NCBI GenBank assembly: GCA_011800805.1
Contig: MPNW01000085.1
Location: 105,190-169,189 of the forward strand
DNA from: Hirudo medicinalis
Taxonomy: Eukaryota; Annelida; Clitellata; Hirudinida; Hirudinidae
Reading direction: 5' to 3'
Length of the DNA: 64,000 nt
Shown here: in pieces, positions 23,001 through 64,000 of the stretch
Position numbering within the stretch: the stretch's first letter is position 1
Layout: each line of letters opens with the position of its first letter
Notes under the pieces: model-generated
Told to the model about the DNA's origin: nothing
The model's input: the letters and a program-made list of their open reading frames with translations, nothing else
Databases searched by the model: none
Translations under genes and position numbers: made by a program

Positions 23001-24942
23001 GGTACAAAAACTTCATAGTGGAGTTTTACGAATATTATGGTTTATACAATTCCACATGAAAGTTTGAGGTGAAAAATGCATAAAAATTTAAATTTTGTAA
23101 AAGATACGTTTATAATAATCATAAACTTACGATGTAATTTTTGTTTGCTTGGTTACGGTCATCACATCTCCAGTGTAATTTCTTAATTCAATAGTCTCTT
23201 TGTGTTGCAAAAGTTCTGCCCATCCAGGCACAAATTCAGGTTCCCTGGTCACCCAAAGAAATGCCAAACTCAAGAAATTGATCGCAACCACCAATTCAGC
23301 AAATCTTGAAATAATAATTAAAAAAATAACAATTTTACTCATAAATGTTTTGAACATTTTACAAATTTTTGGTCAGACTTAAATTACATGAAATCTCACG
23401 TTATAGACCCAAGTCTAACATATTCAAATCTTATTATTTCGTTGGCCGTATCATCTGGTGGTTCAGAAGACTTTCCGAAACTCTCTTTCACCCCGAAGAA
23501 TATGACGAGGAGGCAAATCCACGCCAAAATGAGATCAATGATCATCGAAGGAAAACCGATGACAAGCCATGAGGTAAAATTGATCGTTGAAATCGAATAG
23601 AGACTGAAAAATATCATATTAAAATATTCGTTATTGCGCAAATAAATAATATCATTTGTAAAATAATAAATGTTTGAAAATTTTCAAAGACAAATCAAAT
23701 TTTATGTTAACATTTCAAGTTGACCCTTGAGAATGATATTTGGACCACAGCCGATGAGAGTACCAATTCCTCCAATGGTTGATGCAAATGGAATGGACAA
23801 TTTCAGAGCGGTCTTAAAGTTTTTAAATTTCAGATTGCTCAGTGCTTCTTGATCAGCTATCGCATCTTCTGCTATTTTTATTTCTTCTCTATAAAATAAA
23901 AATAAATGTACAATATTTTTTATTTTATTTTAAAATACTTATTTAAATTATGTATTCTTTATGTATTCTTATTCACATATATTTTCAATCTCAACCATCA
24001 ATGTCATTTCGCTGTGGTTCGTTATTCACCTTGAAATTCAAATGAAATGGAACCTCACTTTGTCATCTTTGAATCTTGGACTCGTTTTAACTCAGTTTTC
24101 GATTTTGAAGTTAATTGTTTAACTCTATTGTTATCGAGTTCAGTGAGTACAGCTTGCGCTATGGGCATCATCATGGCAGTGGTGGCAGTGTTGTTCAGCC
24201 ACATGGAGAGGAAAGCTGTCACAACCATGAAGCCAAAGATGATCCTTGAATTATTTTGTAACAGTTTATTTAATTAAAGTTTATCTCTATTTCAGATGCA
24301 ATTTCTTTAAAAGTCTCATTGTTTCTCAGAACGAACCACTTTGGTTTAGAGCCCACCAACAGAAGAACCCTCAATGCCACCCTCTTGTGAAGATTCCACT
24401 TCTCCACTGCCACTGCAACCAACAGTCCTCCAAAGAACAACATGTTTGCATCCTGGAATTAGGAAATCGAATTTGATTCTCCAAATTATTTGATCACTGA
24501 AAGCAAATTCTAAATTCATCCCAAGTTTCCGTATATAATATTTTTAATAATTTGTTCTTGGTTAACCTTTAAATAGTTGACACAGATATCTCTCGAATGC
24601 ATGACACCAAGCCATGGAAAGAGAACTATGGGAATGAGGGCTGTGACTGCCATAGGAATGACCTCTGTCATCCAGTAAACAATCATAATCAAGATCACGT
24701 AAGCACATCTTCCTTGCTGTTAATTAATTTTAATAGACTTGTATTTGCATTTCAGTATAGTTTACGACAAATAACCAAACCGGTTCGTTCCAAAGAATGA
24801 CAATCGGCAGAAGAAATAGCGGCGCGCAGATGACGATGAGGGTGTCCCTGATGGCCCAAAGTTGCTTGCCTATCGAATAGTGTGATCGTTGAGGTGAGGC
24901 TTCTGGAGCCTCTGCTTCGATTTCTTCAGTCGATTTGTTCAT
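20035..24942 (-). CDS. SLC13: SLC13-family sodium/carboxylate symporter (gene 3, 11 exons)
   Basis: Intact tandem duplicate of gene 2. Exons in order: 24781-24942, 24567-24716, 24337-24452, 24059-24244, 23712-23888, 23400-23603, 23131-23304, 22514-22611, 22114-22232, 21154-21453, 20035-20172. They total 1824 nt (607 residues plus stop), a normal length for the family, and every phase matches. Features: first helix ending [81 protein letters not shown], and the second sodium motif TSNMAT (S501-M503) before [16 protein letters not shown]. The first motif is NNT (N160-T162) where the family has SNT. The short cytosolic loop (about 60 residues) contrasts with the 420 residues of gene 1. A decayed SINE sits in the intron at 21843-21982. 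Confidence 0.92.
20470..20925. repeat. Probable interspersed-repeat debris in gene 3 intron
   Basis: Segments beginning CAGTGGCGGATTGGCC (near 20482) and a G/C-rich tract near 20858-20930 stand out from the AT-rich intron and look like worn termini of interspersed elements. No ORF, inverted repeats or target duplication was established, so this is a weak call based on base composition and familiar terminal wording. Confidence 0.3.
21843..21982 (+). repeat. tRNA-derived SINE, copy a (diverged)
   Basis: Begins GGTACAAGTTGGCTCAGAGA (A-box-like) and contains GTGTCGTGTTCGCAGCCC (B-box-like), followed by the GC-rich family body and an AAATATAAATGG stretch. It belongs to the same family as the copies at 25460, 34554, 37440, 52833 and 58862, and is the most diverged. 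It lies in an intron of SLC13 gene 3. Confidence 0.75.
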
Positions 24943-26456: not shown

Positions 26457-29047
26457 TTAACATTTTATTTCAAAATCTTCCTTCTTCCAGACGAGGTCTC
26501 CGGCAATGAAAGTAGCTTGAACGTGCAGATTGCCATCGAGAAGAATGAAATCAGCATCAGTTCCAAAGTCCAGAGTTCCCTTCCTGTCTTGGATCTTGAG
26601 GACGAGAGCAGGATGGAGGGTGGCTGCCTCGACTGCTTCTACGATGCTACTGCCTAATTGGGTCATTTAAAATGCTAATTAGAATGATCACTAAATGTTT
26701 AGTTTATTAAGCAGAACCAACTGTGCTATTGAAATTAATAAAAATTGAAACCTAGAAATATTACAATTATATTATTAATCATATTTATTAATCGAAAATA
26801 AATTTTTATTTTACTAGAATAAAATGACTTAATTAATTAATTTACATTCGTTTTTATAAAATTTAATCGACTGATTTTGTAGTCTAATTTCGAATCAATG
26901 GAAATGCAAATATACCTGTATTTTCATGGAAAAACCTGACGCACTTGTCCATTGATGCAATACTAAAAAGTAAAAAATTAGAATTTAAACACCTAGCAAT
27001 AATTGAGCTTTATTCATGGTACTATTTCAATTAACTAACGCTAGCTATGCAATCGAAGCCATTGTTTGACCATACAATCAAATTAATAATTTATCCAACC
27101 TTCCACAGAGGGTGTTTGTGCCTGCAATGACAGCCCTGTTGCCAGTGACATCGATGACTTGTTTGCCCAAGTGGTGTGTGCCTTCCTGAAGACCCATGGC
27201 AGAAATGGCATCAGTCACCAAGACCAGACCTGAGTTACTCATTAATTGTTGCCATTTATTTTCAATGTCAAATCGAAATAGAATACCAATGAATCTAATT
27301 TGTCCGCAATAACAAACCTTTAGGATGGGTTTTATAGGCAATCGTAAGAGCAGCAGGATGTGCATGAATGCCGTCAGCAATTATTCCAAAGAACAGATCT
27401 GGAGAATCGGGCTTGAAAGCTGAGGCAAGAAGACCTATCAGGTTTGGATTGCGGTGATGGAACTGAAAAGTCATCATAAAACTTTAAATATTCGGTGATG
27501 CAGTAAAAACTGCATTACTATTAAAAAAATGCTAGAAATGCACGAACCGGTAGCATTGCGTTGAAAAGATGTGTCAACATCCTGGCTCCCTTAGAGAGGG
27601 CTTGTTCTCCCGTTGATAGATCAGAAGAGGAGTGGCCCAGTGACACGACGACGTCTTTTTCTTTCAAGTAACTGATCACATCAAGGGCTCCAGGCAATTC
27701 GGGGGCAAGTGTAACGATGGCGATGTTATCCAGGTGATGATAAAAAGTTTGAAGTGTTTCAACGCCGTCTTCAAAGTTGCTTACGCAATCTTTTTCGTGT
27801 GCTCCCTTCATTTCCTTGCTTATAAATGGTCCTTCCAAGTGGAGACCTGAAGTATTATTATCATTCTGTATCGGCACTGGAGAACCCCATAGCGAAAACA
27901 AATAAAGAAATCCGTTCCTATCATGACAATCCTGTGGTGAACGGGACCTTAATAAAATGTCCTTCTCCAAAAAAAGAAATGAAAAACTCGCGCACAAAGC
28001 AATTCAATGCTCTAAAACAAACCCAACAAAACGATCTGTTTCATGTTTTAATATTTTTAGCCGATCCAAATCGACGGCATGAATTATTAATTAGCGCCTC
28101 CTAACATTCAGATGCAATTTAATTAGGTCTCTTGAGACAATTTCCATCACTTGTCATTATAAATTCCTCACAAGTTTCAAATCTCAAAACAAATTCAAAT
28201 AAAAAAAAAGTTAGTATAAAAAAAATATTATAATATAAAAGGCGCCATCTACGAGGCAACACTAAAAATAATAATTTCATGTGAGATTCATATTTAAAAA
28301 ACTTCGCAATTTCAAGAAAATGTGATTCCGAACGTCTTGTTAGCGACAACAATGTATGATAACAGTAATAATTTCAGCATTCAAATACGCATCCACAAAT
28401 AATAAATGTTCATCAAAATAAAAGTGATACAACATGATTCAAAGTGAACATAAGCTGCGATGACTTCCAAGAATTCAGAGGAGACTTAAAACTCACCCAA
28501 AACTCCAGCACCATCCTGACCTCCATTTTTTTTCTGAACCTTCACCAAAGCCTGGAAAAGAATTACAAGTACGTATAATTTTCCTTATTTACAATAATAT
28601 TACATTTGAATCCTTTTTAATACCTTTTGGTAAATGTCGTTCTTGCTAGTGATAACGGTAGGGCAAAAAGAAGTCACTCCATGAGCTAAAAGTCCTTTGG
28701 ATACTTTTGAGATATTCTCGCAAATGTTCTCTGGATCGAGAGTGAAATCGCAACCAAAAGCTCCTGGAACAAATACACTTAATCAGACGATTGCAATTTA
28801 TTAGCCTCTAATTAAGAATTAACTAAGACATTGCAAATGACGTACCATTTATTTGGAGGTCAATGAACCCAGGAAACAAGTAGCAACCCTTGCAATCTAC
28901 CATCACTCCTGAAACAATCTTCTCATCGAAAAAGAGCCCATCAGGTCGGATGATCTTTCCATCGCGGATCCAAAGATCTTCTCTGACGATCTTGTGATCC
29001 CTTATAATTCGACAGTTCACGAACTGATAGACGAGTCCACTTTGCAT
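26457..29047 (-). CDS. AMDHD2: N-acetylglucosamine-6-phosphate deacetylase, copy A (8 exons)
   Basis: Cytosolic enzyme of the NagA/amidohydrolase family that removes acetate from GlcNAc-6-phosphate, giving glucosamine-6-phosphate in amino-sugar salvage. Exons: 28846-29047, 28624-28763, 28497-28551, 27548-27846, 27318-27462, 27100-27229, 26916-26962, 26457-26653. They total 1215 nt (404 residues), close to the roughly 409 of vertebrate AMDHD2, with matching phases. Visible signature residues: [10 protein letters not shown] start of the barrel, metal ligand E137 in LHLEGPF, H204 in SLGHSS, H225 in THLFNAM, the DGIHAHP loop, and catalytic D287 in [10 protein letters not shown]. The start at 29047 is the first ATG of the frame. 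A second copy lies in inverted orientation at 35168-38687. Nothing suggests inactivation. Confidence 0.95.
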
Positions 29048-30239
29048 TTTCGGTTGCAAATCTAGTCCCTTATCGAAACACGAGATGCCCTTTTATGTTG
29101 CTGGCAACCAATCATATGATGCACTTCCGCATGTAATGCACACAAAGCATTATGTTCAACTCTGACCTTCCTAAACCTATCGGTTTAGTCCCTTAAGCCC
29201 CACTGAGATTCAGTTGTTAGAAGTCGTTGCGTAACACATTTTTATGTCATTCATTGAAACTTTGTTTAACTATATACGAATGTTTGGGCATAACCTAATC
29301 CTTTGCCGCCAAGCTATTCAAGTCTCCTAGAAGTTGACAGTGACCTTGTTGCGCAAGGATTGCAATCCAGCACAAACAATCTGCACCACAATCTGATAAC
29401 CAAGCTTCATTGACAGAGTTTGCAACTTCAACAAACACAAGCGAACTTCACTTCTCAGTTATTTATTACACTTCATCACCTCAAATGACCTCGTCAAGGA
29501 CAACCATCTTTACGGACCTCAATTCCTAGACTACGTCATCGCAATGAAATTATTAGCGTAACCACAATAAATTGTCTCGTTAATAAATTTAAATGCTACC
29601 AAGTCTCTCACGTGAGAGATGAAAATATCATCTACTTTGATGCCGTGTTTTCAAATCAACAAAGCAAACCAGCTGACATGATGGAATTTGCAAACTATCA
29701 CAACAACCAGAATAACAACAAAGGTCCTATTAGCTGCAATAATAAGAGTGCCAGTAACTTCAACGTAACTGTGGCGAATGACCAGCATGTAAGCACCCGT
29801 CATGATCTAAATATCAGAATGATGCTCGTGATCGCTAATAACTGGAATAACTTGGAAAGAACATCAAACACGTAACTTTGACAACGACGCAGCGATAATA
29901 CCATTGGAGCTTGTGAGACAAAATTGCAAACAATTGGAAATGTTTTCAATGTTTATGAGCACAAGAAATGGAAATTATTTGGAAAGTGGATCTCGAATGT
30001 ACAAAATAATTCATTTCATACCACATTAGCAAACAAACTACAATCCATAGCGTGTTAGCAGATAGAAACATAAGGAATGATTTTATTTATTTTTAGAAGA
30101 TTTATAAAGCAGTGGAGCAAATGAAGACTGCTTCTGAGAATTGGATGAATTTGAGGCCCTTGAAGGTGAAAAACGAGATCTCATTGGTGGTCTAGGAGAG
30201 GGCAAATTAGCTCTCCTGCTCTCAGATTGGCTGTTGATG
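29048..30239. other. Intergenic between AMDHD2 copy A and Bicaudal-D
   Basis: Contains the AMDHD2 copy A promoter and the Bicaudal-D 3' UTR. TTTATT at 30082-30087 gives AATAAA on -, about 155 bases after the Bicaudal-D stop. A plus-strand frame at 29612-29875 is N/Q-rich, has no recognisable family and is not supported. Frames at 30083-30337 are alternative registers of the Bicaudal-D last exon and 3' UTR. Confidence 0.6.
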
Positions 30240-33200
30240 TTAAGCTTCCGAATGCGGGTCCTGGTCGGGAAAGAGATCGACGGAAATGCCGTGACTCTGA
30301 AGTTTCTTGAGGAGTACGAGTTTGTGCTGGATTGCAATCCTTAGCAGACTGTTGAGGGTCTTTCGTTCCAATTCCGAACAGCTGAGCTGCAAAGCCACAG
30401 AGAAGAAAGTCATTAGAATCGAAGAAGAATGAGAAAATAAGAAATAATTGGGTGAGAAATTCTACCCTCTCCTGTAGATCATTCATTTCACTGGAGTACT
30501 GATCACATTGCTTGATGAGAGTTTGTTCTGAGACAAACTTCATTCCTTCCTTTTCCTTCAGCCCATCTATATCCCTCTTCAGATCCTCCACCATTCTCAT
30601 CTTCATCTTCATCTCTGCATCGTGTTGTTGTTTCAGCTTGTCGATGCTCGATTCATAAACGGATTTATTGGCTGCCAGCATCTAAAATAACAAAAAGACC
30701 ATAAAATAAATGAACAATCACAACTTAGCACAAAACCCAAGAGAATGAAACATTAAATCAAATTTTATGCGACACATTGAATTGAAAACCATGTCATTCT
30801 TCATCACAAATATATGTATTTATCTCGTCACAAATGTATTTATCATGATTGTTGATGATGCAAACCTGTCTGAGGGACATCATTTGTTCAGTTTTAGCAG
30901 CAAGAAGAGATTGAAGTTGGAAAATCTGTTCGTGGAGTTCAAAGTTGGATGAACACGGAGGTGCATGTATGGCCATGGATTGTCCATTCAAGAAGGAGGA
31001 AGTGAGAGAGGAGGATGCCAATGATGACGATTCCCTTGCCCGGATGGCAACTTTCGTGTCGAGCATTCTGTTGGCAACTCGTCGAGAATATCTTCGTTTG
31101 GAAAAAGGAAAACATCCAAGCATTAAAAATAGGGACTTTAAAATAATGAAATATAAGAAGGTTTCGTTTTTTAGTAAAACAATATTATCTTCTCTAAACA
31201 AATCGGAGCAGATCTGAATTCCGAGCTCCATCGGTTCATTGTTTAGATAGTTAATAGAATAACTTTGAAATGTTTGTAAACAGGTAAAGACTATCCTCAC
31301 CAATCAATAGCTTGTCAGAAACAAATGACTAACCTCATGAGATCAATGGATGATGCTAATAACTTAGTGCAGTCCACCTCCATCATCCACACAGACTCAT
31401 CAGCAACTGATAAAAACGATTAATTTATCTTCATTTCAATACTGTAAGTAAATATTGTAGATTTTGTTCCAAATGCTTCTTGCAATTAAGAGGCTTTGTA
31501 AAAATTGTGAAGTTTTGTTCAAATAAAATTCGATTCACCACATAAAGTGATTATGAATTAGGATCTTCTTATTATGAACTCAACTCAACCTTAGAACAGG
31601 CTTAAAACTAATCTGCAATTGGTCTGTTTAGTTCAGGTGAATTGAGAGTGCAGCATAATGTGTAGGTGAATGAAGTTGTAAACACCTGGGGTATTCTTTG
31701 GCAAAGTCTTTGAAAGTACGAAGGAAGGGATGCGACTCTTGGGAACGTCTCCATCGGAGCGACCGACTTTGGCCCGAACAGAAGCCTTTCTGGCATCGAC
31801 ATGAGTCATGGCCTTCGAGTTGAGACTCTCCTCGGCAGCACCGCAGAGGGTCGCGTACGTCGACTGCGCTTCGGTCACCATGTCGAGCAGGACGACCCTC
31901 AAATTCTGCAAGCACCTCAGGGCATCATCCATGTTCTCCTCGTTCGAGGAACTCTCAGTTTGGGTTCCAAGAGTTGATGTTTCTACATTACAATATTATG
32001 TAGTTAGTCTTTCGAGCAGTAATATGACAGTGAGGTTGCTAAATGTTGTTACAACTTTTAAATTCTCAATTAGTACACATCATTCACAACAAACCTTTCA
32101 ATATGACCAACTCCACATTCTCCAAATGACCTTCAATATTTATCTGCAGCATGAAATGTAAATAAATTCAAACGATCACCATTAAAAGGTGCAAATTCAC
32201 AATATTAACTTTTTTTTTAGCAAATATTAAACTTTTTTTCAATGAAGCAAAGGCAGGATGAAGAAAGAATCAGAAATGAATAAGCCGTATTCACCTACAA
32301 GTTCTCAACTTTTGCACAAGATGATTAAATTCAGCCATTCATCCAAACAATGTTACAACAATGTCCTCCCATCAATCTGAAGTACAAACCTCATCAGTCT
32401 TGTTTTCCAGAGTCTGCTTCAAATCTTCAACTGTTTTACTGAGTTTCAAGTTTTCCATCTCCAAATGCTCGATATTTGCAACATACTCATCATGACTCAT
32501 CATCAACTCACTCATCAGATCTTTAGACTTCCTGTTTTTTGGTTTCTTTGTCTCCTTCCCATCAGAGGTTTTATTGGGGCAATTACTTTTAACAATGGCC
32601 GAAACATCTTCCAGACTGTCATTCATGATTGCATTCATTTTTTCATGATCTTTATCAACATCATCACCATCTTCTTCCTCATCATTGCATGTCATAAATC
32701 CATCAAGTAATGCAGAGATGTTGTCAACTGAAATATCTCCTGCCATAGAAGATGGGCCACCAATAAGGCTGTGCAGGGAAGCCACAGTCGAAGCATTCAA
32801 GAAGGAACCCTCATCCGATAGCACTCTGGAATCGAGCTCCCTCTTGTATCTCATCTTCATCTCCCTCTCGTCCCTCAACATGTCATTTGTTTCCTGAAGA
32901 CTCCTTTCCATTTCAACTTTTAGTGAGCTGTGTCTTTTCAGCTCCAATGATATCTCATCCACTTTCTCCAAGAGTCTTTTGTTTTCTGATTGGATGGCAT
33001 CAAAGTGTTGCAAGGATTTCAGCAGATGTGAAACCTGCAGTTGAAGTTCCACATTGTCTGACTCAAGGATGTCACAATTCTTTAAGGCAAAACTTTCTCT
33101 GAATTCACAATCTTTCAAATCATCTTTTACTTTCTTTAACTGTAAATTTTCAGAAAGTAATTTTAGCAAGAAAGGTAAATAAGTCAATAAAACTGACAAT

Positions 33201-33898
33201 AAATGAGATGCAGTAGTCACCTGTGCTTTTGTGTTCTCATTCAGTAACTGGCTTTGCTTCCTGAGTTCCTCTAATCTGTCCCTTTCCTCCAGACTATGGG
33301 ACAGTTGCTTCCTGTAGCTTCTGAGTTCATTCTCTAGATCTTCTCTTTCCCTTTTGCTCATCTCTTCTTGGACCATTCGCTTCTCTTCTTCTGCAATGTC
33401 AGCCTCTTCCAAAGCTTTGTTGTGTTGTTGCATTGCAATAACAACCTATTAATAACAAGTGATAAAAATCAGTGTCTCACTAATCTGATAAATTTAACAT
33501 TTATCCATTAATTTGATAATTGATAACGACCTGATATATATAAATTTGTGGGTTCCAGATCTTTTATAATATTATATTATTACATAATAGTGAAAGCAAA
33601 TGTTCCTATTCTCTTTAAATAGATTTGTTATTTCCTTACACTTTAACGATAAAATAATTACCAAAATCTAAAAATGTCCAACCTCTTGAGCACAATTCAG
33701 TTGAGCTCTGAGATTCTCCATTGAAGCCTCCTTTTGGTCCAACAGTAATTTCAACATTTTCTTTTCTTCGAGAATTGCCAGTCCATACTCAGCAGCATCT
33801 GCTTTTTCCTTGTTACTCCTTTCTAGATTCATCTTCAACTGCTTCAATTCACTTTGCAAGTCATCAGACTTGTCAGTTCCTGATGCATCTTTATCCAT
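30240..33898 (-). CDS. BICD: Bicaudal-D dynein adaptor homolog (9 exons)
   Basis: Cytoplasmic coiled-coil adaptor linking dynein/dynactin to cargo. Exons: 33683-33898, 33221-33445, 32390-33139, 32095-32143, 31686-31982, 31334-31406, 30866-31067, 30466-30681, 30240-30386. They total 2175 nt (724 residues) and all phases match; vertebrate BICDs are longer, roughly 820-980. The N-terminus holds the CC1 box AAEYGLAILEEK (AAEYG at 35-39), which in the family contacts dynein light intermediate chain. Residues about 73-397 are almost wholly coiled coil, with the family-like KKVKDDLKDCEFRE. The C-terminus (CDQYSSEMNDLQER joined to ERKTLNSLLRIAIQHKL) matches the conserved cargo (Rab6/Egalitarian) helix. 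The last exon is read in a frame that six-frame ORF finding does not show; its two other frames are also open. The middle (31000-31070, 31700-31980) is less conserved and its small exons are less certain. Confidence 0.9.
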
Positions 33899-35167
33899 TT
33901 ACAACTCTCAATTGAAACATTTCTAGAGTAGCCGTAAATTAGAATAAAAATTCATTGTTAAAAAGTACGAAAACCTGGATATTAGTTACCGGCTCTAATG
34001 AAATGAATCGTTCATCTCAAAACAACGGCGCCGCAGTTAAAAGTGAAGCTATGTTATTAAAACGTTCAATTAAATTTACACAAAAAACATTATTTTAAGC
34101 AAAAAACAATATTGTAAACAAAAAAATGAAAACCAATAAAATCGTTTCAATTTTATCATCGGAATAATTCATAAATAGCATTTTTACTGCAACTGTTGTT
34201 ACAAGTTGCAAATCAATCACTCTTACAAAATAATTTTAAAATAATAATTAAAAAAAAAAAACACGAACATTATAGGTCCCTTTGAGTACTTCAATACCTG
34301 AAGTGACAACACAAATCTGTGCCTGCAGCACTGTAGGTTAAGCAAGCCGATAATGTTATCTAAAAGTGGGTTGAAGTTCGAATACATTAAAGATATAACA
34401 ATAAACTTTGAAAAGACTAATTGACAAAGCTTGCCAGTTACAGTGTTAGAGTGATAATGCAATAGTTTATGAGTCGAGACTATCATCAAATTGACTAACT
34501 AATTTATTCTATTAATAATAGAATAAAACCATCTACATCTACAGTATTTTTTTGGCGTGCAGGTTGGCCGAATGGGTTGCGTTCCTGCATGCGGTCGTAA
34601 TAGCAGCAGTCGTAATGTGTCGTGTTCGCAACCCAGCCTGCACCGCCAGGGAGCGCCCTCGGGTAGGGGTGCTATGTAAATGGTAGATCGATTAAAAAGT
34701 GCCTTCACATCCCATTCGGATACAAAAAGGCACTCAAAATATCGGCTAAATACACAAATACGGTTTAAGATTTTTGAGGTTATTTTAACGATATAGTAGG
34801 TGTCTAAAGATAAAAGATCATATTAAAGCATATTAACTTTCTTCAGAGAAAGCTTCCCTCTACATTAGTGGTCTTGAAGATCTGTTGAACATACGCCACT
34901 CTGATCAAACTCTGTATCGTTGTGGTTAACTAATTATACATATTCCTTCGTGATTGATTTTTTTACAGTTCTAAATATAACCTCATAAATTATGGCTTTA
35001 ATTTAAGTTTATTAATGTGGTTAATTAAATTAAAATTTAAATTAAATAATCTATTAATTAATTCTAACAATATGACTAATGAAAAACTGATAATCATTTT
35101 CGTGATAAGGTAAATAGTCTGGCGTTTAATGGCGCTGAGATTTTAATCCATATTTTAAACATTTGGG
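33899..35167. other. Divergent intergenic region, Bicaudal-D and AMDHD2 copy B
   Basis: Promoters of both divergently transcribed genes must lie here. It contains SINE copy c (34554-34756) and otherwise AT-rich sequence with homopolymer A/T runs. No exon was recognised. Confidence 0.6.
34554..34756 (+). repeat. tRNA-derived SINE, copy c
   Basis: Full head: GGCGTGCAGGTTGGCCGAAT (A box) and GTGTCGTGTTCGCAACCC (B box), with the terminal CAGCCTGCACC pairing the 5' GTGCAGGTTG as in a tRNA acceptor stem. The body is rich in GCGCC and the tail is shared with copy b. It lies in the divergent promoter region of Bicaudal-D and AMDHD2 copy B. Confidence 0.9.
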
Positions 35168-38100
35168 ATGGTGAACGAGGGACATATCGAAGCAAATTCA
35201 TCTGGAAATGATCGTTTTAAATATGAGAAAGGAAAACTTTACCAGTTCGTCAATTGTCGTATTTTGAGGCAACACAAAATATTTGAAGAAGATTTCTGGG
35301 TTCGTGATGGTATAATAATGAACCCGGAGAAGATATTCTTTGATGAAAAGAAACGAGCAGATTATATAGTAAATTGCAATGGATGTTTCTTGTTTCCTGG
35401 CTTGATTGATCTTCAGATAAATGGTAAAGATTTCTTGCAATTTTTTTGTAAAATGCTGAATGTATGTATGTGTGGCTTTTTGCTTATCCAGTTGTGTTTA
35501 ATTGCAGGAGCCTTTGGGCGTGACTTTTCATTAGCTCCGGAAAATATTTGTGATAACATAGACACAGTCGCCAAAGGATTACTTGCTCATGGCGTCACAT
35601 CTTTTTGCCCAACTATTGTTACGAGCACACCTGATCTTTACATACAAGTAAGCTTAAGTCGTCCAAAATAGATAGGGAGTACCCATTTTTTTTTACGATA
35701 TCTCAACCAATATGTTACGAAAATTACTCAAATTCTTAGTATGTTGTGTAAATTGTGCTTCAAAAGTTTTACATTGAATTTGGTGAAATATTATTTTCAA
35801 ACTTCATAAAAAATCCCAAAAATGCGTTTTTTCAGCATCCAAAAAAGATAGGAAGGCAACATGAAAAGTCAATAATAACAACACAAATTTATATTTTTGA
35901 CACCATTTTCTCTATTATTTCAAAACATCTTTTGTTCATCGACAAAATTAATTTTTTTATAAAGTCTGATTCCAGATTATTCCAGGAGGTCCTGATGGCA
36001 TCTTCCAACTCCGATTTAGAATTAAATTGTCTTCCATCTTTGTAGACCAGTCTTGACAACTTATCCCAAGCATTTTCAATTGGATTGAGATCAGGAAAAC
36101 GAGCTGACCAACTCAAAACATTTATGTTTCTCTCTTGGAAGAAGGTCCTTGTCAGTTTGGAAGTATGGATCGGAGCATTATCTTGCTGAAATACATAATT
36201 AGCAATATATCCTCTCAGCAAAAGGCAGGAGATTATTTTCCAGCACTTTCATATAATCTGCTGATTTTTGCTTTCCTTGTAGAAAAGCTAGATCAGTGAG
36301 TCCATCATGTGAAATTCCTGCCAAAATCATGACTGTTCCAGCTCCGTGATTTCTGCTTTAAAATAACTCCTTCTCTAATCTGAGATCATGCCAGTAAAAC
36401 TGATAACCATCAGGTCCACCTAGATTGAATTTTTTTTCATCAGAAAAAATTATGTTGGTCCAACCTTCTCTCCTTGATAACATTGTTTTGGCCCACTGAA
36501 CTCTGGCAATTTTGTGGTGTTCTTACAGAGCTGGAACCTTTAATCTCTTTTCATATTTTAAAATTTTGCTCGCATTTAAGTAATTTATTACTATATACTT
36601 ACAAACAATGAAGTTCATTTGCACCTTGTTAAATTAATTTTATAACTCAAATGCAAACCCCTTCCTATCTTTTTTGGACGGCCCAAAAGCACATTTTTAC
36701 GTAATTTACGAGTTTTAATTATTCTATGAAGTAAAAATTTTACAAGATGTTTTATATGTGACCTAATGTCCAAATTTGAATAAATTCCATTATTTGATGT
36801 ATGAGAAATTTGCATAAAATATGCGCTCCCTATCTATATTGGACGGAGTGTACAATGTATGTATAAGAATACATTATGTTTGTCTTAATTTAAGATTCTT
36901 ACAAGAGCAAGCAAGAAAAAGGGAGGGAGACAAGGTGCAGGTGTAATAGGTGGACATTATGTTTCTATGATTTAAGTCTATAGACTAAATTTGAATCATG
37001 TCAGTGAAATATTTATTTAATTTGTAATGCAATTCATTCAGGCCTACATTTGGAGGGACCTTTCATAAGCAAGGAAATGAAGGGAGCACATGAGATAGAA
37101 TGTATCAGCTCTTTTGAGGATGGCATTGAAACCCTTCACACCTTTTATGGACACTTGGATAACATTGCCATTGTCACCCTTGCCCCTGAGTTGTCTGGGG
37201 CCCTTGATGTGATTGGTTATTTGTCTGAGAAGGGTGTGGTTGTATCTCTGGGTCATTCTTCAGCCTGCTTGTCAGTTGGAGAGCAAGCTGTTAAAAGAGG
37301 AGCCAGATTTATCACTCATCTCTTTAATGCAATGCTACCCGTTAGTTGAGCAATGATGATGATCTTTTTAATGTCAATCAGTTTTTTAATTTTATGAAAC
37401 TTTATTTATGGGATTCCAATCAAAACTTTACTCATCTTTGGCGTGCAAGTTGGTCGAATGGGTTATGTTCCTGCATACGGCGGTAATAATAACAGTCGTA
37501 ATGTGTCGTGTTCGAAACTCAGCCTGCACTGTCGCAAGCACCCTTGGGAAGGAGCGCTATACAAATGGTTAACAAGAAGCGCCTCTATGCATATGGCGCT
37601 ATATAAATGAAATACATTTATTTTAAGAAGTTGACCATGAACAAATTCATCAGGAAGGATAAACCATTTCCCAAAATAATTAATGGGGTTTCAAAGACTT
37701 TTACTAATTTAGTTCTTAATAGGATATTGAAAGTTGTTATTGATATTATATTATTTTTATATTATGATCAACATAGAAATAATTTTTAATTAATGTAATT
37801 TCATGATAAAATGTCAATTGTAGTTCCACCACAGGGATCCTCATCTTGTTGGACTCCTGTCAGCTGAAAACACTCCAAAGATTTACTATGGAATAATTGC
37901 AGATGGCATCCACACTCATCCTGCTGCTCTTAGGATTGCCCACAGGTCTCACCCCAAAGGTGAAACATTTTCTCTACATTACCAATAATTGTGATCAAAA
38001 TTTAATTTCATTTCACTGGCTCTGTTTAACATTAAATAGTTTAATCTTGTACAAGAAATCTATTGACACTTGCTTTCACGATTCTGATTGTGATGCGTTA

Positions 38101-38687
38101 TCTTTTTGTCAAGTTTTTTTTTATGACTGTGGCAGGCATTGTGTTAGTGACTGATGCCATATCTGCCATGGGTCTTCAGGAAGGCACACACCACTTGGGC
38201 AAACAAGTCATCGATGTCACTGGCAACAGGGCTGTCATTGCAGGCACAAACACCCTCTGTGGAAGGTTGGATAAATTATTATTAATTTCTTAATAAAACA
38301 AAGTGATGGAACAAATGTGGGGAGAATTATCAGGTTTATTTTTCTGTTGACCAGCATTGCATCATTGGATCAGTGTGTCAGGTATTTCCATGAGAATGCA
38401 GGTCGGTTGCATTACAAGACATATTTTGTAAGTCTCCATCATTTCATTTTCTTTAATGCATGCCAATGATTTTCTCAGCTAATGACATCATAGAAGCAGT
38501 CGAGGCAGCCACCCTCCATCCTGCTCTCGTCCTCAAGATCCAAGACAGGAAGGGAACTTTGGACTTTGGAACTGATGCTGATTTCATTCTTCTCGATGAC
38601 AATCTGCACGTTCAAGCTACTTTCATTGCCGGAGACCTTGTCTGGAAGAAGGATGATTTTAAATTTGAATCCAAAGAACGTATTTGA
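35168..38687 (+). CDS. AMDHD2: N-acetylglucosamine-6-phosphate deacetylase, copy B (8 exons)
   Basis: Second AMDHD2 gene, inverted relative to copy A. Exons: 35168-35423, 35508-35647, 36895-36949, 37042-37340, 37824-37959, 38136-38265, 38355-38401, 38479-38687. They total 1272 nt (423 residues). Five exon lengths (140, 55, 299, 130, 47) equal those of copy A; exon 5 is three codons shorter and exon 1 has 18 extra codons at the start ([20 protein letters not shown]). The metal ligands and catalytic Asp are conserved (E155, H222, H243, D302). The N-terminal exon differs widely from copy A, whereas exons 6 and 8 are almost identical to it. Intron 2 carries a Tc1-like element and intron 4 a SINE. 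Both copies look functional, so they may differ in expression or N-terminus. Confidence 0.93.
35657..36850 (-). mobile_element. Tc1/mariner-type DNA transposon with IR/DR termini, transposase decayed
   Basis: An element of about 1.2 kb sits between TA dinucleotides (35655-35656 and 36851-36852). Each end carries two direct repeats about 165 bases apart: outer GTCCAAAATAGATAGGGAG at 35661-35679 and its inverse at 36826-36844, inner TCCAAAAAAGATAGGAAG at 35838-35855 and its inverse at 36661-36679. This is the IR/DR layout known from Sleeping Beauty-like Tc1 elements. On the minus strand the DDE domain is readable: [12 protein letters not shown] (first Asp), [10 protein letters not shown] (second Asp), [10 protein letters not shown] (third acidic residue), the last two in an open frame at 35889-36221. 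In-frame stops and frame changes upstream indicate it is inactive. Confidence 0.88.
37440..37620 (+). repeat. tRNA-derived SINE, copy d
   Basis: Head GCGTGCAAGTTGGTCGAATG, B box GTGTCGTGTTCGAAACTC, body GCGCTATACAAATGG, then a second GGCGCTATATAAATGAAATA block. The tail differs from copies b and c and matches copy e, showing two subfamilies. It lies in intron 4 of AMDHD2 copy B. Confidence 0.9.
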
Positions 38688-39053: not shown

Positions 39054-40300
39054 ATGATCTTGAACTCTCCCAGCACTCTGATCAGATCAATTCTTATTCG
39101 TTCCTGCGCGTGGACTACTGAACATCTCATTATCGCCATGTTTGTTTACAGTTCGGAGCTTCTTTGCTCACTCAACCCAGCTCCTGACAATAGCCGAATT
39201 GAAAGAACCCTAAGAAAAGTTCTCTTCAAATTCAAAATATGGCGTACCCGCAGTTGTTCCTCATCCAAAACAGGGAATTTCGACCGTACTCCTAATTACT
39301 CGCCCAGCACTAGACTCGAACACTCTAAAATTGCTTCCTCGCAACTTAAGATTGGGTCGCTCAATTCGAGGTCTGCTGCCAGCAAAGCCGCCCTACTTCA
39401 CAACATCTTGCAAGAAAGTCGCCTCGACGTGCTTGCAATCACTGAAACCTGGATTCCTTCAGATGCACCCCAGACGATCAAAGCTGACTTAGCTCCTCCG
39501 GGTTATAAAGTGATTCACCAGTGGACTCTCCACCGAGAGCAAGGGTGGCGGCCTGGCAGTTGTTGCTAAAGACTACCTTCGACCAGTTCCAGCCAAGCTT
39601 TGAGTCGCTCTCAGTAAAAATAATATCACAGACGTGGTCCATCTTACTCCCCGTTGTCTATCGCCCTCCATCGTCTTCAAAATCTCGATTTATCTCTGAC
39701 CTTAAAACTCTGATTGACCAACTAAACAAACAACCTCTTCCCTTCTTACTTTGTGGCGACTTCAACTACCCACTCACACCTCAATTTGATGATGAACTGT
39801 CCCTCCTACTCAGTAAGCACAGTCTCATTCAGCACATCAACTTCCCCACTCACAACCTTGGCCAAACGCTTGATATTGCCATCACTCCCTCCAACCAAAA
39901 CATTTCCATAAAAGTCTCCGGCAAAAATGTCACGTTCTCGGATCATCTTCTTTTAGAGTTCACCACCGACATCACCGTACTTCTCGGCCGAAGAGTTGGT
40001 CTCTTGAATCGTCGACGTCGGAGACCGACAGCTGTCTCCGGCCTTCCTATATTAATTTCGAAGAAGGTCTACTGGCTTCGCATGTGCAAAATCAAAAATG
40101 AGGCTGCTTCCGCCGTCTTCGTCAGAACCATTGTTTCTTCTCAGCTCAACAGAGACTTCCCATGTGTTGCCTGGAATGAACTACCATATCTGGAGCTCTT
40201 CAAACGTCACCTGAAGATCCATCTTTTCAAAAGGGCATCATGAATCCAGGTCAATGGGACACAAGGCGCCTTATAAATGTATTATTATTATTGTTATGTA
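39054..40300 (+). mobile_element. Non-LTR retrotransposon, endonuclease joined to C-terminal tail, RT missing
   Basis: Two overlapping frames encode an AP-type endonuclease: LKIGSLNSRSA, LDVLAITETW, then after a frame change near 39540 PVVYRPPSSSKSRFI, LLCGDFNYPL and FSDHLLLEF. Directly after about 39975 comes a stretch ending FVRTIVSSQLN and LELFKRHLKIHLFKRAS, the kind of sequence at the C-terminus of such ORF2 proteins. The reverse transcriptase that should lie between is absent. The copy ends in GGCGCCTTATAAATG plus a (TTA)n-type tail near 40281. It is inactive (frameshift and deletion). Confidence 0.8.
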
Positions 40301-44226: not shown

Positions 44227-45681
44227 TTAGAAAAATTTGGCTCCCTCGAACGATGTTCCGCTATATCGGTCCTGGTTTGGTAGGCTTCCCCTGCTATGAT
44301 GCCGGTTGTTCCTTTTGACAATGCCAGCCCCAGAATGATCGGCGGACAGTCCATATTCCTCAGTGAATCTCTCTGTCCTCATGTGGCTGTTGATGTTTAC
44401 ACAGCGACAGAAAATAATTTCTTTGAACGGCTTTCTGAAGTCTCTGTTGAAGCGAGCGTAGATGATTGGATTCAGCAGACTGTTGGCAAACCCCAGCCAG
44501 AGGAGAAGAGCTGATATCCAGTCCGGCACTACAGTTCCAGCTGGCAAAAGAGGTTTGACTAGAGCGAGTATAAAGAAAGGTAGCCAGCAAGCCACGAAAC
44601 ATCCCATTATTATGCCCAGTGTCTTCGTTGTTTTGCGCTCCTTGGAAGCTGATGGCAGTTTGTGGAGTCCGGAATTTGAGGATGGACGATGGTGGAGAAA
44701 ACTGACATTTTTCAGACTTTTACGAGGAGGTTCAGAATGACCGACAGCGATTGCAGGGTCTGGAACAGCGAGGTTCGTGGGCGACGTTGCACTGTGTTGA
44801 GCAGATTCATCGACGCCATTTCTACTGTGGTTAGACTGAATGGAATTCTTCGACTGTAGGCAAGGTTTGCGGCTGCTGCTACTCTCGATGGAATTCCTGT
44901 CGACCCCACCTGACCTTGATTCGCTCGATGCTTTTTTGTTGGAGGTGATGGAAGACGCGAAGGAGCTCGTGGATCTCAGCGGTCGGTGATCTTGCGGAGC
45001 GGACATGAGTTCAGATTTATGAATGCGGGACGACACGGCATAGATGCGGTAATAAATGAAAATCATTATCGACAGAGGGAGGTAGAAAGCTCCTATCGTG
45101 GCATAAAACTGATAACCAATGGCCTGACTCAACTCGCAGACCTTGTCCTTCGGTTCGGCCTTCCAGCCAAACAACGGAGGGATGCTTATAAGGGCAGAGA
45201 GGAGCCACACCGAAAAAATCATGAGAGCCATCAGAGCCGGCGTTCTTTTCATGGCGTAGTCAAAGGGTCTGGTGATAACGAGGTATCTATCGATGCTGAT
45301 CATGCACAGGTTCAGTATGGAGGCCGTGCACAAGAGGACATCCAAGGAGGTCCAAACGTCGCACATGGTCGTTCCAAGTTCCCAAGTGTTCATCACCTCG
45401 TACATGGCTGCCAGGGGCATGTCTGCCACCGCCACCAGAAGATCGGCCACCGCCAGAGAAACTATGAGCAGATTCGAGGGGGTTCTTAGTTTCTTGACGA
45501 TGGCGACTGCGATGCAGACGAGAACGTTTCCTACAATCGTTCCAATGATGATGAATGTGCAGGCCATCAAGATCAACACTGTCTCCCAAGTCGGGTATTT
45601 CAGTTGAATTTCATTTATGGCGGAGGTAGTTTCATAAAACGAGGAGGAAGACGAAGTGATGGCGGTGATGTTGGTAGCCAT
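44227..45681 (-). CDS. HTR7: Serotonin receptor, 5-HT7-like (single-exon class A GPCR)
   Basis: A 484-residue seven-transmembrane biogenic-amine receptor in one exon. Landmarks: N-glycosylation site near N4, GN of TM1 (N52), SLAVADL with D80, disulfide pair C107 and C182, amine-binding D114 in TSLDVLLCTAS, DRY at 131-133, long basic/Ser-rich third loop (about 215-345), CWLPFF at 365-370, NPIIY at 404-408, then FCRC as probable palmitoylation site. 5-HT7 affinity is suggested by LDVLLCTASILNLCMISIDR, the second extracellular segment PPLFGWK...DKVCELSQAIGY and ATIGAFYLP in TM5. Other amine receptors (5-HT1, octopamine) are possible but fit less well. The start is the first ATG of the frame. Oddity: TM2 has ADMP where aminergic receptors have a hydrophobic pair before MP. 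Upstream untranslated exons are not visible. Confidence 0.9.
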   Translation of the reverse strand: MATNITAITSSSSSFYETTSAINEIQLKYPTWETVLILMACTFIIIGTIVGNVLVCIAVAIVKKLRTPSNLLIVSLAVADLLVAVADMPLAAMYEVMNTWELGTTMCDVWTSLDVLLCTASILNLCMISIDRYLVITRPFDYAMKRTPALMALMIFSVWLLSALISIPPLFGWKAEPKDKVCELSQAIGYQFYATIGAFYLPLSIMIFIYYRIYAVSSRIHKSELMSAPQDHRPLRSTSSFASSITSNKKASSESRSGGVDRNSIESSSSRKPCLQSKNSIQSNHSRNGVDESAQHSATSPTNLAVPDPAIAVGHSEPPRKSLKNVSFLHHRPSSNSGLHKLPSASKERKTTKTLGIIMGCFVACWLPFFILALVKPLLPAGTVVPDWISALLLWLGFANSLLNPIIYARFNRDFRKPFKEIIFCRCVNINSHMRTERFTEEYGLSADHSGAGIVKRNNRHHSRGSLPNQDRYSGTSFEGAKFF

Positions 45682-46844
45682 TTTGCAGTCACAGACCTCG
45701 ACACAATTTCGTTTGCTGCAGATTCGTCCGTTTCATCGCATTGAGATGAACTCAACTTCTAACGTTGATGTTTCATTCTGGACATTTCTTGGAAATTGAA
45801 AACAAATTATGCAATTAAATTTAAAATCCAGACAAATAATTTACCTTCCGAGGTTCAGCTGGAAAACGGAATCCAGAGAAGCATCTGAAACCGAAGAAAG
45901 TTTCCAGGATTCTGAGAAGCTTTCGCCGAACAACAAAAAGGGGCGGCAGAGAAAGATGGAGTAACGAAAGGAAGAAGTGGAAAACAGGAGAGAGGGAGAG
46001 GTTGCAGAAGATGAACGAGATGCTAAGATGCAAAGGGTGAGTTCTAAATTGATGAGATATCAACTAAGCCGTGCAATCACGCAGATCAAACCTTCCACAA
46101 GTCTCTTATTCCTCGGATGATAAACAAAATCTTGATCTATTGCCTCGACATTGCAAGAAAAGATAAAAATGAATCAAGTTCTCATAAAAATTCTCAACTT
46201 TTAAAAATTGTCCCGATAAGTGCACCTTCTATTCTGTTCATATTCTGCTAATGAATCAATGGTTTGTGAGGGATTCCGTGTGTACTGCATGTTGAGCAAC
46301 TTCGAAGGAAAGGTTCGCAGGAAATAAATAAAAGAAAAATAAACATCGTGAAGAGATGGAAATAAGATTAACTTGAAAGGAGACCGAGTGTGTGCAGGAA
46401 ACTTTGATTCAAATAAGACCGTGTGAAATTTTGATGAGAGATAAAAAGATAAGTGGGCTGATAGATTGACGGTCAGAGGGATGGATCTGAAGGATGTGCC
46501 GATTGGTGGATGTTGAATAATTAAGTATGATTAAATGAGATGTGGATGGCTGTGAACGAAACCGATAGAGTGGAAGGCACTTCTATGGTTTACAAACTCA
46601 CCTCATGAGATAAAGAAGTTGAAAATTGGATCTCCACGAGTACAACTCATTTTCGAAACAGTTACTTCAATGAAATGATCGTAATCACATGAATATTAGC
46701 AAGATGTTATTATAACGATATTTATAATCATATTTATAGATATAATTATAAATTGCACTTGCAAATGAGATTGGTGAGAAAAATTGCTCGTCATTCAGAC
46801 CAGCTTGAGAGAGTTTCCTAAAGAGAACAAAAGTTGTTAATTTG

Positions 46845-51806: not shown

Positions 51807-52330
51807 TTATTGATAATGGAATTGAAGAGTATAATTTTGGACCATAACATTGAATAGAAAAGAGTTTGAAAGTAGATTTAGCAAATGAGGGACTATGTTC
51901 ATGTGTGGAACGAAGAAAATGAGTAGGGTTATTGTAGTTATTACTGTCAGAAAAAAAAACAACCTGAAAAGTATCTTGGGGATGGCATTACAATCATAGG
52001 AAAACATAAAAATTGCAATTTGTAAACTATGGATTTGATGAATGCTTAATAGGTTATTGTTAGCAAAAGTTGACTTAGTTGGAGATGAAAATGGTAACNA
52101 ATCATAGGAAAACATAAAAATTGCAATTTGTAAACTATGGATTTGATGAATGCTTAATAGGTTATTGTTAGCAAAAGTTGACTTAGTTGGAGATGAAAAT
52201 GGTAACAAGAAAACAATCTGAATAATCCGCTTTTGCAAAAGGTTTAACCTATCTAAATGAGAATGATAAGTAGAAGCCCATACAATGTTGCAATAAGGTA
52301 AATAAGAGAAAAATACAATAGAAGAGTTAT
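51807..52330 (-). mobile_element. Non-LTR retrotransposon ORF2 C-terminal fragment
   Basis: The minus strand reads LPYCNIVWASTYHSHLDRLN and LLQKRIIQIVF, then LPFSSPTKSTFANNN, IHQIHSLQIAIFMF, the typical region downstream of the reverse transcriptase in non-LTR elements. Frameshifted and truncated. A 107-base stretch of it is duplicated around a single N (52099), most likely an assembly artefact. Confidence 0.65.
51992..52206. repeat. Perfect 107-base duplication around a single N
   Basis: Bases 51992-52098 and 52100-52206 are identical, starting AATCATAGGAAAAC and ending GATGAAAATGGTAAC, separated only by N at 52099. This is what an unmerged overlap of two contig ends looks like. Confidence 0.95.
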
Positions 52331-55879: not shown

Positions 55880-56632
55880 CTGTAGCGTTTATTGTCAAAT
55901 AAAAACATGACAAGGCCAAGCTCTAATTCACTATGGCGTAAAACGCGCGGGTGCGACACTATCCTCCTTTCCAAATTCTGGCACTTCTGCATGCTGCGCT
56001 TGTGCCTGAGCTGGTTCTTCCATAGCCTGCTCGGTAACAGACAGAGGAGGTTCCTTAGAGAAGCGTCTTCTTGTGGTTCCATCTTGAAGTCTTACTTCAT
56101 AAGATCTGTAGGGCAACACTATCGTCTGATGGAGCCTTTCTGCCAATCACACCGATCATCTGGCTTGAAACGTACATTCAATTCTGCCCGATATTCAATG
56201 AGGGTCTTTCCATGGCAGGCATGTAAAATGCCGCTTGTTTCAGCTTGACAGCCTTCATAATTTCTCGCATTCTTATGCTATTTCGTCTGCAGGAGTATGT
56301 CTGAAATTGGCATCAATGTGCGGGTGTGTCGACGGAGGATAGAGAGGACTGGATGTGTGGTGAGAAATCTCCCATTTCTTCATGAAATACTTAAAATCCT
56401 TCGAAAGAAAAGATGTGCCATTGTCTGAGAATACTATTTTTAGTATTCCATGGTGCGCAAATTGACCTTTCAAACAGCGTATCACATCAGAAGCAGTTTT
56501 GCTGAGATGTCGATCCACTTCGAAGTAGCTACTTGAATAGTCTGCCACTATGAGGTAGTCACGTCTTCGGAATGTGAAGATGTTAACTCCTACCTTCTGC
56601 CAAGGTCGTTCTAGAATTTCTTGTGATAGCAA
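55880..56632 (-). mobile_element. Ty3/Gypsy-type integrase and C-terminal fragment
   Basis: The minus-strand frame 56273-56632 is an integrase core: ERPWQKVGVNIF, YLIVADYSSSYFEV (first Asp), IVFSDNGTSFLS (second Asp), and WEISHHTSSPLYPPST where the catalytic Glu region follows. Further 3' (55931-56230) a post-integrase piece reads PYRSYEVRLQDGT. Upstream coding is interrupted by Merlin-like sequence. No LTRs were found. The copy is incomplete and inactive. Confidence 0.8.
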
Positions 56633-56635
56633 GAA

Positions 56636-57225
56636 GCAATTAGTTCATCAGAGGTCCCCCTCATTCTTTTGAACTTGTCCTTCGCACATCTCCACAAGTT
56701 CTCAACACCATTTGTATGAACGCCATTTGGAGCCACAAAGGTAACAGAATGGTTTACAGTGGCATGATCCAAACCTGTGACAGCTGTTAGGTTTACGTAG
56801 GCTGCCCTCCGATCGCTCCAAACTTTCGTTCCTGTAGGGCAAATAATAAATGTTTAATTTACTATTAAAAGATTGTCTCATATCGAGTCTATTACCTGGC
56901 GATATGCGCTGCTGTATGATTGGTAGCAGTGTAATGCATCTGGGGTACTTCAACCAAGAAGACCTCTTTTGTCTCTTGATCTATGCCATCTCTGCCTTCC
57001 TGGTCATACTCGCCGATTCCTCATCCTCTATGGTGCTGAAACACTCATCAATTTGAACCATATGCCCTGGACCTCCGATTTATATAGGATGATCTCTCAT
57101 CCAATACATACAGAGATCCCGGTGCATGTTGAACCAATCGGGGAGAGTGTGGCATGTGCTCAATTGGAGCAATTCCCCAACAGATGCTTGACTTATGTCA
57201 CTCAGTGACCAGTAGTAAGTCATCT
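56636..57225 (-). mobile_element. Merlin-like (IS1595/ISXO2-type DDE) transposase remnant
   Basis: Minus strand, several short frames in order: ISQASVGELLQLSTC, LPDWFNMHRDLC, IGGPGHMVQIDE (first catalytic Asp), ITLLPIIQQRISPG, then after an acceptor-like TGCCCTACAG the segment KVWSDRRAAYVNLTAV (second Asp), LDHATVNHSVTFV, GVHTNGVENLWRCAK (third catalytic residue position). The motif order and spacing are those of Merlin transposases. Stop codons are present. It abuts the Gypsy integrase. Confidence 0.75.
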
Positions 57226-61355: not shown

Positions 61356-61361
61356 TTTATT
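61356..61361 (-). terminator. Candidate polyadenylation signal for the peptide-precursor gene
   Basis: TTTATT on + is AATAAA on -, about 175 bases after the TAG stop of the two-exon precursor gene. Placement is plausible; use is unproven. Confidence 0.5.
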
Positions 61362-61535
61362 GCGCATCATAAAGACTTTAAATCATCAGCTAGGGTTTCG
61401 CTTTAACAGTTGAGTCAAAAATAAGAATTCATAGTCATGACGACAGAAATTGACTTTAAAAATCATGAAGGAAGTTTGAGATTTGCTACCACGAATCGTC
61501 ACATTTGGTTGGAAAGGGTTTTTGCCAACTGGGAA

Positions 61536-62024
61536 CTAATATTTGGCTGTGCTTGGTCTAGTCCATTTTCTTGTTGTCCTGGTGCTTGGTCTAGTCCATT
61601 TTTTTGTAGTCCTGGTGCTTGGTCTAGTCCATTTTTTTGTTGTCCCGGTGTTTGGTCTAGTCCACCTTGTTCTGGTGGTGGGTTTGACCCATTTTGGTGT
61701 TGTTGGTTTCTTAAAGGGATCTCTAAAGAACTTTAAGGGCAGTTCTTCAGCTTCTCCCAGGACCAGTTCCTCCTCGCCTACAGCAGGAAATTAACTTTAT
61801 TGACTCAAGTTCTTTTCAAACAAAATTATTTACAAATGCTTTGAGTAGTTTTTAATTTTTGAGACTTTAGTAAATAAATCATGCTGAAATCATGATCTTA
61901 AATCACAACTTATTTAATGTTAAGATCATTTAAGAATTATTTTGCAAATAAACACACCTTGAGCCAATCCAACGACCAGCCAGATCGAGAACAAGCAGAC
62001 AATTACCAAGTGAAGGAATTTCAT
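61536..62024 (-). CDS. Secreted repeat-peptide precursor, 102 residues (2 exons)
   Basis: No known family was recognised. Exons 61958-62024 (67 nt) and 61536-61777 (242 nt), joined over an intron with GTGTGT donor and CTGTAG acceptor, total 309 nt. Exon 1 encodes a textbook signal peptide (MKFLHLVIVCLFSIWLVV, then GLAQ), probably cut near residue 21-23. Next is an acidic spacer (EEELVLGEAEELPLKFF, about 24-41), then a basic, Pro/Thr-rich repeat region from about 44 to 102. A 33-base DNA repeat gives units WTRPSTRTT separated by KK or RK: a WVKPTT unit, WTRPNTGTT, WTRPSTRTT twice, and C-terminal WTRPSTAKY. Signal peptide plus acidic spacer plus dibasic-separated near-identical peptides is the layout of neuropeptide prohormones and of some cationic antimicrobial precursors. 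There is no Gly before the cleavage sites, so C-terminal amidation is not expected. Overlapping plus-strand frames lack a signal peptide and splice support. Confidence 0.75.
61541..61690. repeat. 33-base coding minisatellite
   Basis: Four to five copies of a unit containing GCTTGGTCTAGTCCATTTTT (+ strand). Because 33 is divisible by three, every frame stays open and the plus strand also gives repetitive ORFs. The minus-strand reading belongs to the precursor gene. Confidence 0.9.
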
Positions 62025-63815: not shown

Positions 63816-64000
63816 TTAGGCTTCTTCATCCTCCTCCAGTTCTTCCTCATCTTCGTCATCAACTTCAACTTTGTCTTCTTTTTCTTCTTCTTTTTCTTTG
63901 TCTTCTTCTTCGCCCATTATTTTTGGGAGCCCGTGATAAGCCATCATAACGCCTAAGCCAAATCGTAAAATCAATAAACCGGTATTTCGGTATTTGCCAA
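63816..64000 (-). CDS. 3' end of an unidentified gene, acidic C-terminus (partial)
   Basis: The frame is open from the window edge to TAA at 63816. It reads GLLILRFGLGVMMAYHGLP, then KIMG, followed by a 31-residue tail made almost wholly of E, D and K and ending EEELEEDEEA. The hydrophobic part is faintly reminiscent of DoxX-type membrane proteins (LLRxxLGxxFxxHGLxK), which is only a guess. The 5' part lies outside the window. The acidic tail could alternatively be read as starting at the internal ATG. Confidence 0.4.
   Translation of the reverse strand, partial: GKYRNTGLLILRFGLGVMMAYHGLPKIMGEEEDKEKEEEKEDKVEVDDEDEEELEEDEEA

Follow-up and report, generated by a model that had tools for sequence, protein, structure and literature searches.

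A putative two-exon gene of Hirudo medicinalis predicted to encode a secreted, cationic precursor with repeated WTRP peptides

Leeches serve as model animals in neurobiology and are a source of bioactive secretions, and lineage-specific repeat precursors are common in animals. The foot protein of Perna is an adhesive of Trp-containing decapeptide repeats, in which secreted repeats carry Trp, Thr, Pro and Lys, and lumbricin is a Pro-rich antimicrobial peptide of annelids, leeches included. Insect Pro-rich antimicrobial peptides are produced from multi-copy precursors with a pre- and a pro-sequence (PMC11678341), while the annelid Platynereis possesses non-amidated W[I/L] peptides as well as precursors without recognised homologs (PMC3890597). 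A published screen for multicopy neuropeptides requires either five or more dibasic sites, spaced 5-25 residues apart, or three or more amidation sites (PMC8557429), and W-x-x-W/C is described as the acceptor motif of C-mannosylated Trp-repeat adhesive proteins (PMC8433626).

Within a 64,000-nt stretch of contig MPNW01000085.1, hereafter the window, we read from the sequence a two-exon model on the minus strand. Exon 1 (62024..61958, 67 nt) holds the ATG and the predicted signal peptide MKFLHLVIVCLFSIWLVVGLAQ and ends in phase 1. It is followed by a GT-AG intron of 180 nt (61778..61957, minus strand; AAG/GTGTGT ... CTGTAG/G) and by exon 2 (61777..61536, 242 nt including the TAG), which encodes an acidic leader, GEEELVLGEAEELPLKFFRDPF, and then cationic repeats. 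The junction 61777/61958 keeps the frame, and the predicted product of 102 aa, MKFLHLVIVCLFSIWLVVGLAQ-GEEELVLGEAEELPLKFFRDPFKKPTTPKWVKPTTRTRWTRPNTGTTKKWTRPSTRTTKKWTRPSTRTTRKWTRPSTAKY up to the stop codon, comprises in order a signal peptide, the acidic leader, one W-V-K-P unit and four W-T-R-P units. The repeat region (61539..61691, minus strand) reads WVKPTTRTR, WTRPNTGTTKK, WTRPSTRTTKK, WTRPSTRTTRK, WTRPSTAKY. The n-region and cleavage-site features of exon 1, together with a 12-residue hydropathy maximum of 3.08, fit a signal peptide, whose cleavage would probably fall between GLA and Q. This would leave a mature protein of 81 aa with 23.5% Thr (19/81), 25.9% Lys plus Arg, 11.1% Pro, 6.2% Trp and no Cys, and the computed net charge at pH 7 is -4.2 for the leader and +17.8 for the array. 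An AATAAA lies at 61356..61361 on the minus strand, 175 nt 3' of the stop codon. The sequence-only reading had proposed this minus-strand layout, with a split signal peptide, an acidic spacer, five related units and a downstream AATAAA, and its coordinates, phase and splice sites all match what we find.

The splice sites were scored against a background consisting of 20 background loci and the remainder of the window, by a simple home-made measure. The donor, AAG/GTGTGT, agrees with 8/9 consensus positions, a score equalled by 0.5% of 24,488 background GT sites, and the acceptor at 61777 reaches 12 points, equalled by 3.4% of 25,890 AG sites; each is the top-scoring site among those listed for the locus. 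A similarly home-made filter for signal-peptide-like ATG starts (12-residue hydropathy of at least 2.4), chosen after the sequence was known, was run over both strands of 250,289 bp. It returned 13 starts, of which 6 had a nearby phase-1 GT, and this corresponds to about 0.6% per 500 nt of one strand. With the hydropathy cut raised to 3.0, the counts fell to 2 and 0, respectively.

Codon usage was evaluated with a model trained on 7,671 codons from 29 long ORFs, and the coding range (112 windows, mean 0.085) was taken from those same training ORFs. Taken as a whole, the CDS has a score of 0.065 bits per codon, within this range and equalled by 4.5% of 4,903 noncoding windows, and the score of its 50 non-repeat codons is equalled by 2.1% of noncoding stretches. 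In the leader, the log-odds of 0.307 per codon (27 codons) is the best among the six frames; the intron scores below zero in all six. Exon 1 scores -0.087, the lowest of the six frames there, two of the others containing stops, and the repeat codons in the WTRP frame are near zero (-0.014). Thus, the splice sites, the rare signal-peptide start and the codon usage of the leader favour a real gene, and the codons of exon 1 and of the repeats give no added support.

At the DNA level, the repeats form a 33-nt tandem array at 61549-61664 with 3.5 copies, in which units 2, 3 and 4 differ pairwise at 2-3 of 33 nt. Because the repeats are almost identical in DNA, the amplification appears young and no purifying selection is visible; the differences between units, too few and too young, were dropped as a sign of selection. 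Since one further minus frame and also plus frames are open through the array, an open frame there does not count as evidence of coding, and the unrepeated parts were tested instead. Two antisense frames cross the array, and both are probably its reverse face. The one at 61437..61736 (plus strand, 99 aa across the repeat) has no Pfam match at E<=1 and was ruled out as a gene with its negative codon score of -0.055. The other, at 61543..61794 (plus strand; scored for codon usage as 61540-61791), would encode a hydrophobic product of 83 aa from a TTG, and its only Pfam match is a sub-threshold one to FA_desaturase (12.1 bits, cut-off 29.7). Its codon score of 0.062 does not exclude it when set against 0.065 for the CDS, and it was rejected because the minus strand has the predicted signal peptide and the splice sites.

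Searches for relatives returned none. The full precursor, compared with 5.8 billion proteins by a search that requires shared exact 5-residue words, gave 134 candidates, none at E<=1. With a length-extended probe designed to reach orthologs with more units, scoring of the 8000 candidates that had most words in common with it gave no match at E<=10. Pfam and PDB held no relative of the precursor, and exon 2 gave 53 pattern matches in viral and 194 in prokaryote contigs, none of them confirmed by tblastn. The sequence-only reading had linked the repeat to no named family, and the protein, Pfam and PDB searches yielded none. In the animal's own genome (133 Mb, 1,557 contigs), protein, DNA and pattern searches, which score the best candidates only and in the case of DNA skip very common words, found no second copy of the locus and, among the best-scored candidates, no second W-x-R-P array. 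A pattern of W-x-R-P pairs gave 24 matches, of which 6 are the described locus on both strands and the other 18 are close to the reversed-pattern control (16); in a second pattern search of this genome, 4/6 matches were the described locus, with 1 in the control. Of two literature matches, a cone-snail conkunitzin (PMC3040727) has a single WTRPS and no WTRP repeat, and the SwTRPs of a leech paper (PMC11748453) is a gene name.

The sequence-only reading had described the units as separated by dibasic residues, and this holds for the three units that end, in the same register, in KK, KK and RK. It does not hold for WVKPTT, which is not immediately bordered by dibasic pairs, so that cleavage at the dibasic sites would yield a 23-mer, PTTPKWVKPTTRTRWTRPNTGTT. 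The precursor contains n=4 dibasic pairs, KK45-46, KK70-71, KK81-82 and RK92-93, none of which is KR or RR; KK is a poorer convertase site than KR. This number does not exceed chance, as 5.19 pairs are expected from the K/R-rich composition (P(>=4) = 0.84). A Gly-Lys/Arg amidation signal is absent from the precursor sequence. When the published multicopy screen was applied as regular expressions, in the form that PMC8557429 gives, the precursor passed at four dibasic sites and failed at five, one site short, and the three-amidation pattern was unmatched. The mass earlier suggested for WTRPSTRTT, 1061-1062 Da, is wrong, the computed MH+ being 1105.575; the corresponding values for WTRPSTAKY and PTTPKWVKPTTRTRWTRPNTGTT are 1109.574 and 2683.443.

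The locus can be compared with several described systems. As in the apidaecin- and riptocin-type insect precursors, a pre- and pro-sequence, here acidic, precedes several short, cationic, Pro- and Arg-containing copies; by contrast, it has no PRP motif (RP occurs 4 times) and 11.1% Pro, is rich in Thr and Trp, and joins its units by KK or RK and not by a conserved oligopeptide (PMC11678341). It resembles lumbricin in being annelid, Cys-free and rich in Pro and aromatic residues; however, the lumbricin sequences examined carry no tandem units, and lumbricin-1 showed no similarity to the precursor in BLASTP (best match 3 residues, E 6.6). The Platynereis W[I/L] proneuropeptides combine a signal peptide, only predicted in the present precursor, with repeated non-amidated Trp units as found here, but the WI peptides have two Trp 6-7 residues apart (PMC3890597), whereas here there is one Trp per unit. 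The precursor also has one dibasic site fewer than the multicopy screen of PMC8557429 asks for. With the Perna foot protein it has in common a tandem array rich in Trp, Thr, Pro and Lys; unlike in that protein, the repeats here are few, they have dibasic junctions and W-x-x-W/C is missing. That acceptor motif, as given in PMC8433626, has 0 occurrences in the precursor.

Whether the locus is a gene at all, and whether it is read in the WTRP frame, can be weighed on the same evidence. It could be that there is no functional gene, and that a noncoding 33-nt array lies beside a chance signal-peptide-like ORF, that a gene has decayed, or that transcription runs from the plus strand. This is what the lack of any paralog or ortholog in the protein and own-genome searches would suggest, and a stop-free stretch of 28 codons is not rare (21% of 16,007 stretches); the array is also open in several frames, with an antisense frame scoring as high as the CDS. 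Against it, a rare signal peptide, an 8/9 donor, a strong acceptor, a matching phase and a coding-like leader all coincide, and we consider such a chance arrangement improbable; that a real secreted gene is present here is, in our judgement, very likely. Given a gene, we are nearly as confident that the frame is the WTRP one. In a possibility that the sequence-only reading had not raised, a real secreted gene might instead read the array in the other minus frame through an acceptor at 61722 (TTCTTTAG/A), with a rival exon 2 at 61499..61722 (minus strand; EIPLRNQQHQ...GLDQAPGQQKN... repeats) and a neutral, Q/N/G-rich product of 96 aa with GLDQAPGQQKN units. The acceptor exists, the frame is open across all repeats, and the repeat codons score +0.107 in it vs -0.014 in the WTRP frame. 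Yet this acceptor is the weaker one (10 points, equalled by 18% of AG sites, vs 12 points and 3.4%), and the leader discriminates between the frames, since its score is 0.307 when read in the WTRP frame, while the other frame has a stop upstream of the acceptor at 61722. We give this second frame only a small chance.

For a product in the WTRP frame, the sequence-only reading had offered the layout of a neuropeptide prohormone or of a cationic Thr/Pro-rich defence peptide. The former proves weaker than had been stated, and the latter appears to fit the composition better. A clitellate-specific neuropeptide or hormone prohormone, in which convertases would cut at KK and RK, a carboxypeptidase would trim the ends and non-amidated nonapeptides of the WTRPSTRTT type would signal through a receptor, is unlikely in our estimation, but a serious contender. 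It would account for the predicted signal peptide, the leader, the in-register dibasic pairs at three unit ends and the spacing of the four dibasic sites (5-25 residues), and it stays in play because annelid neuropeptides include non-amidated Trp peptides, among them those of Platynereis, where precursors without recognised homologs also occur (PMC3890597). Against it stand the number of dibasic pairs (4 vs 5.19 expected), the absence of KR, RR and amidation signals, the unmatched screen, and the open-licence PMC literature, in which no WTRPS or WTRPN repeat peptide appeared among the matches listed.

Rather improbable is an uncut secreted repeat protein, that is, a basic Thr/Trp-rich component of mucus, cocoon, cuticle or saliva whose Thr residues may be O-glycosylated. 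Thr makes up 19 of the 81 residues, composition alone accounts for the dibasic pairs, and structural proteins that are secreted typically contain short tandem repeats; however, the protein is just 81 residues long, C-mannosylation motifs are absent from it, and an acidic leader followed by a unit-wise repeat is commoner in peptide precursors than in uncut structural proteins. The explanation that we tentatively place foremost, at somewhat less than an even chance, is a secreted, cationic, multi-copy peptide precursor of a defence-type effector, encoded by a gene found once in the genome. A role in defence or secretion is slightly favoured over a neuropeptide because the dibasic pairs are at chance level for the composition, because there is neither an amidation signal nor a KR or RR pair and the screen is missed by one site, and because insect antimicrobial precursors likewise consist of a pro-sequence and repeated Pro/Arg-rich peptides (PMC11678341). 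The absence of PRP motifs and of any similarity to lumbricin-1 weighs against this reading.

If this defence-type precursor is indeed transcribed and secreted, its signal peptide, encoded by exon 1, would be removed on secretion, and the acidic leader may keep the basic array quiet within the secretory pathway. Cuts at KK/KK/KK/RK would then release PTTPKWVKPTTRTRWTRPNTGTT, WTRPSTRTT twice and WTRPSTAKY once. The released peptides would work extracellularly as cationic effectors, most probably in host defence or as a mucus or salivary secretion. Peptide copy number would be amplified as in the apidaecin-type multi-copy precursors. The exon structure, frame, repeats and charges on which this scheme builds are established as properties of the predicted sequence; transcription, secretion, cleavage and activity are inferred. 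A bolder proposal, possible though doubtful, is that the 33-nt duplication gave rise to, or recently amplified, a leech-lineage gene releasing undescribed non-amidated Trp-Thr-Arg-Pro nonapeptides of a new annelid signalling or defence class, and that the choice of 3' splice site between 61777 and 61722 could yield two secreted repeat proteins.

Gene finders readily overlook short precursors that are split by an intron and bear repeats, and repeat masking easily hides them. If expressed, the locus would offer nonapeptides that can be tested for by their known mass, and it would be a clear example of a secreted peptide gene of recent origin. No known mechanism is overturned, as lineage-specific multi-copy secreted precursors are a well-known kind; the value lies in a sharp and cheap prediction consisting of one splice junction and a set of peptide masses.

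Several other features were observed in the window. The frame at 44230-45732 (minus strand), open in one exon, encodes a serotonin-receptor-like GPCR whose best PDB matches are to 5-HT1A. Over 96% of its length it shares 61% identity with a protein of Helobdella robusta, more than with any other named annelid among the 120 matches listed (Capitella 53%, Paralvinella 50%, Owenia 47%), and it is 96% identical to one further protein entry. This one marker places the DNA near leeches. Two inverted copies of one multi-exon gene lie at 27081-29092 (minus strand) and 35159-38290 (plus strand), and their last exons share 47 consecutive identical residues. We take them, from their sequence, to resemble N-acetylglucosamine-6-phosphate deacetylase; the three exon ORFs that were scanned matched nothing in Pfam at E<=0.1. 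The segments 4653-4901 (plus strand), 14741-18041 (minus strand) and 21103-23683 (minus strand) contain exons of sodium:sulfate symporter (SLC13-like) genes, two at the least and perhaps three, an assignment based on a PF00939 match in one scanned exon, 14741-15253, and for the others on likeness to that exon or to each other. Coiled-coil exons resembling Bicaudal-D occupy 30184-33445 (minus strand), with PF09730 matched at 32375-33445 and weakly, below the cut-off, at 30184-30681.

Mobile-element remnants are present at 35892-36248 (minus strand), 39509-40240 (plus strand), 56276-56644 (minus strand) and 56614-56853 (minus strand), and include DDE_3 transposase, endonuclease-reverse transcriptase, integrase core and IS1595/ISXO2-like DDE domain types. 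At 63816-63998 (minus strand) lies an exon whose match to DoxX is weak and below threshold (21.0 vs a cut-off of 23.6 bits). An extended acidic tail follows the match, and the upstream part of the exon is outside the window. Finally, a 108-bp tandem duplication, 98% matching, is located at 51990-52208.
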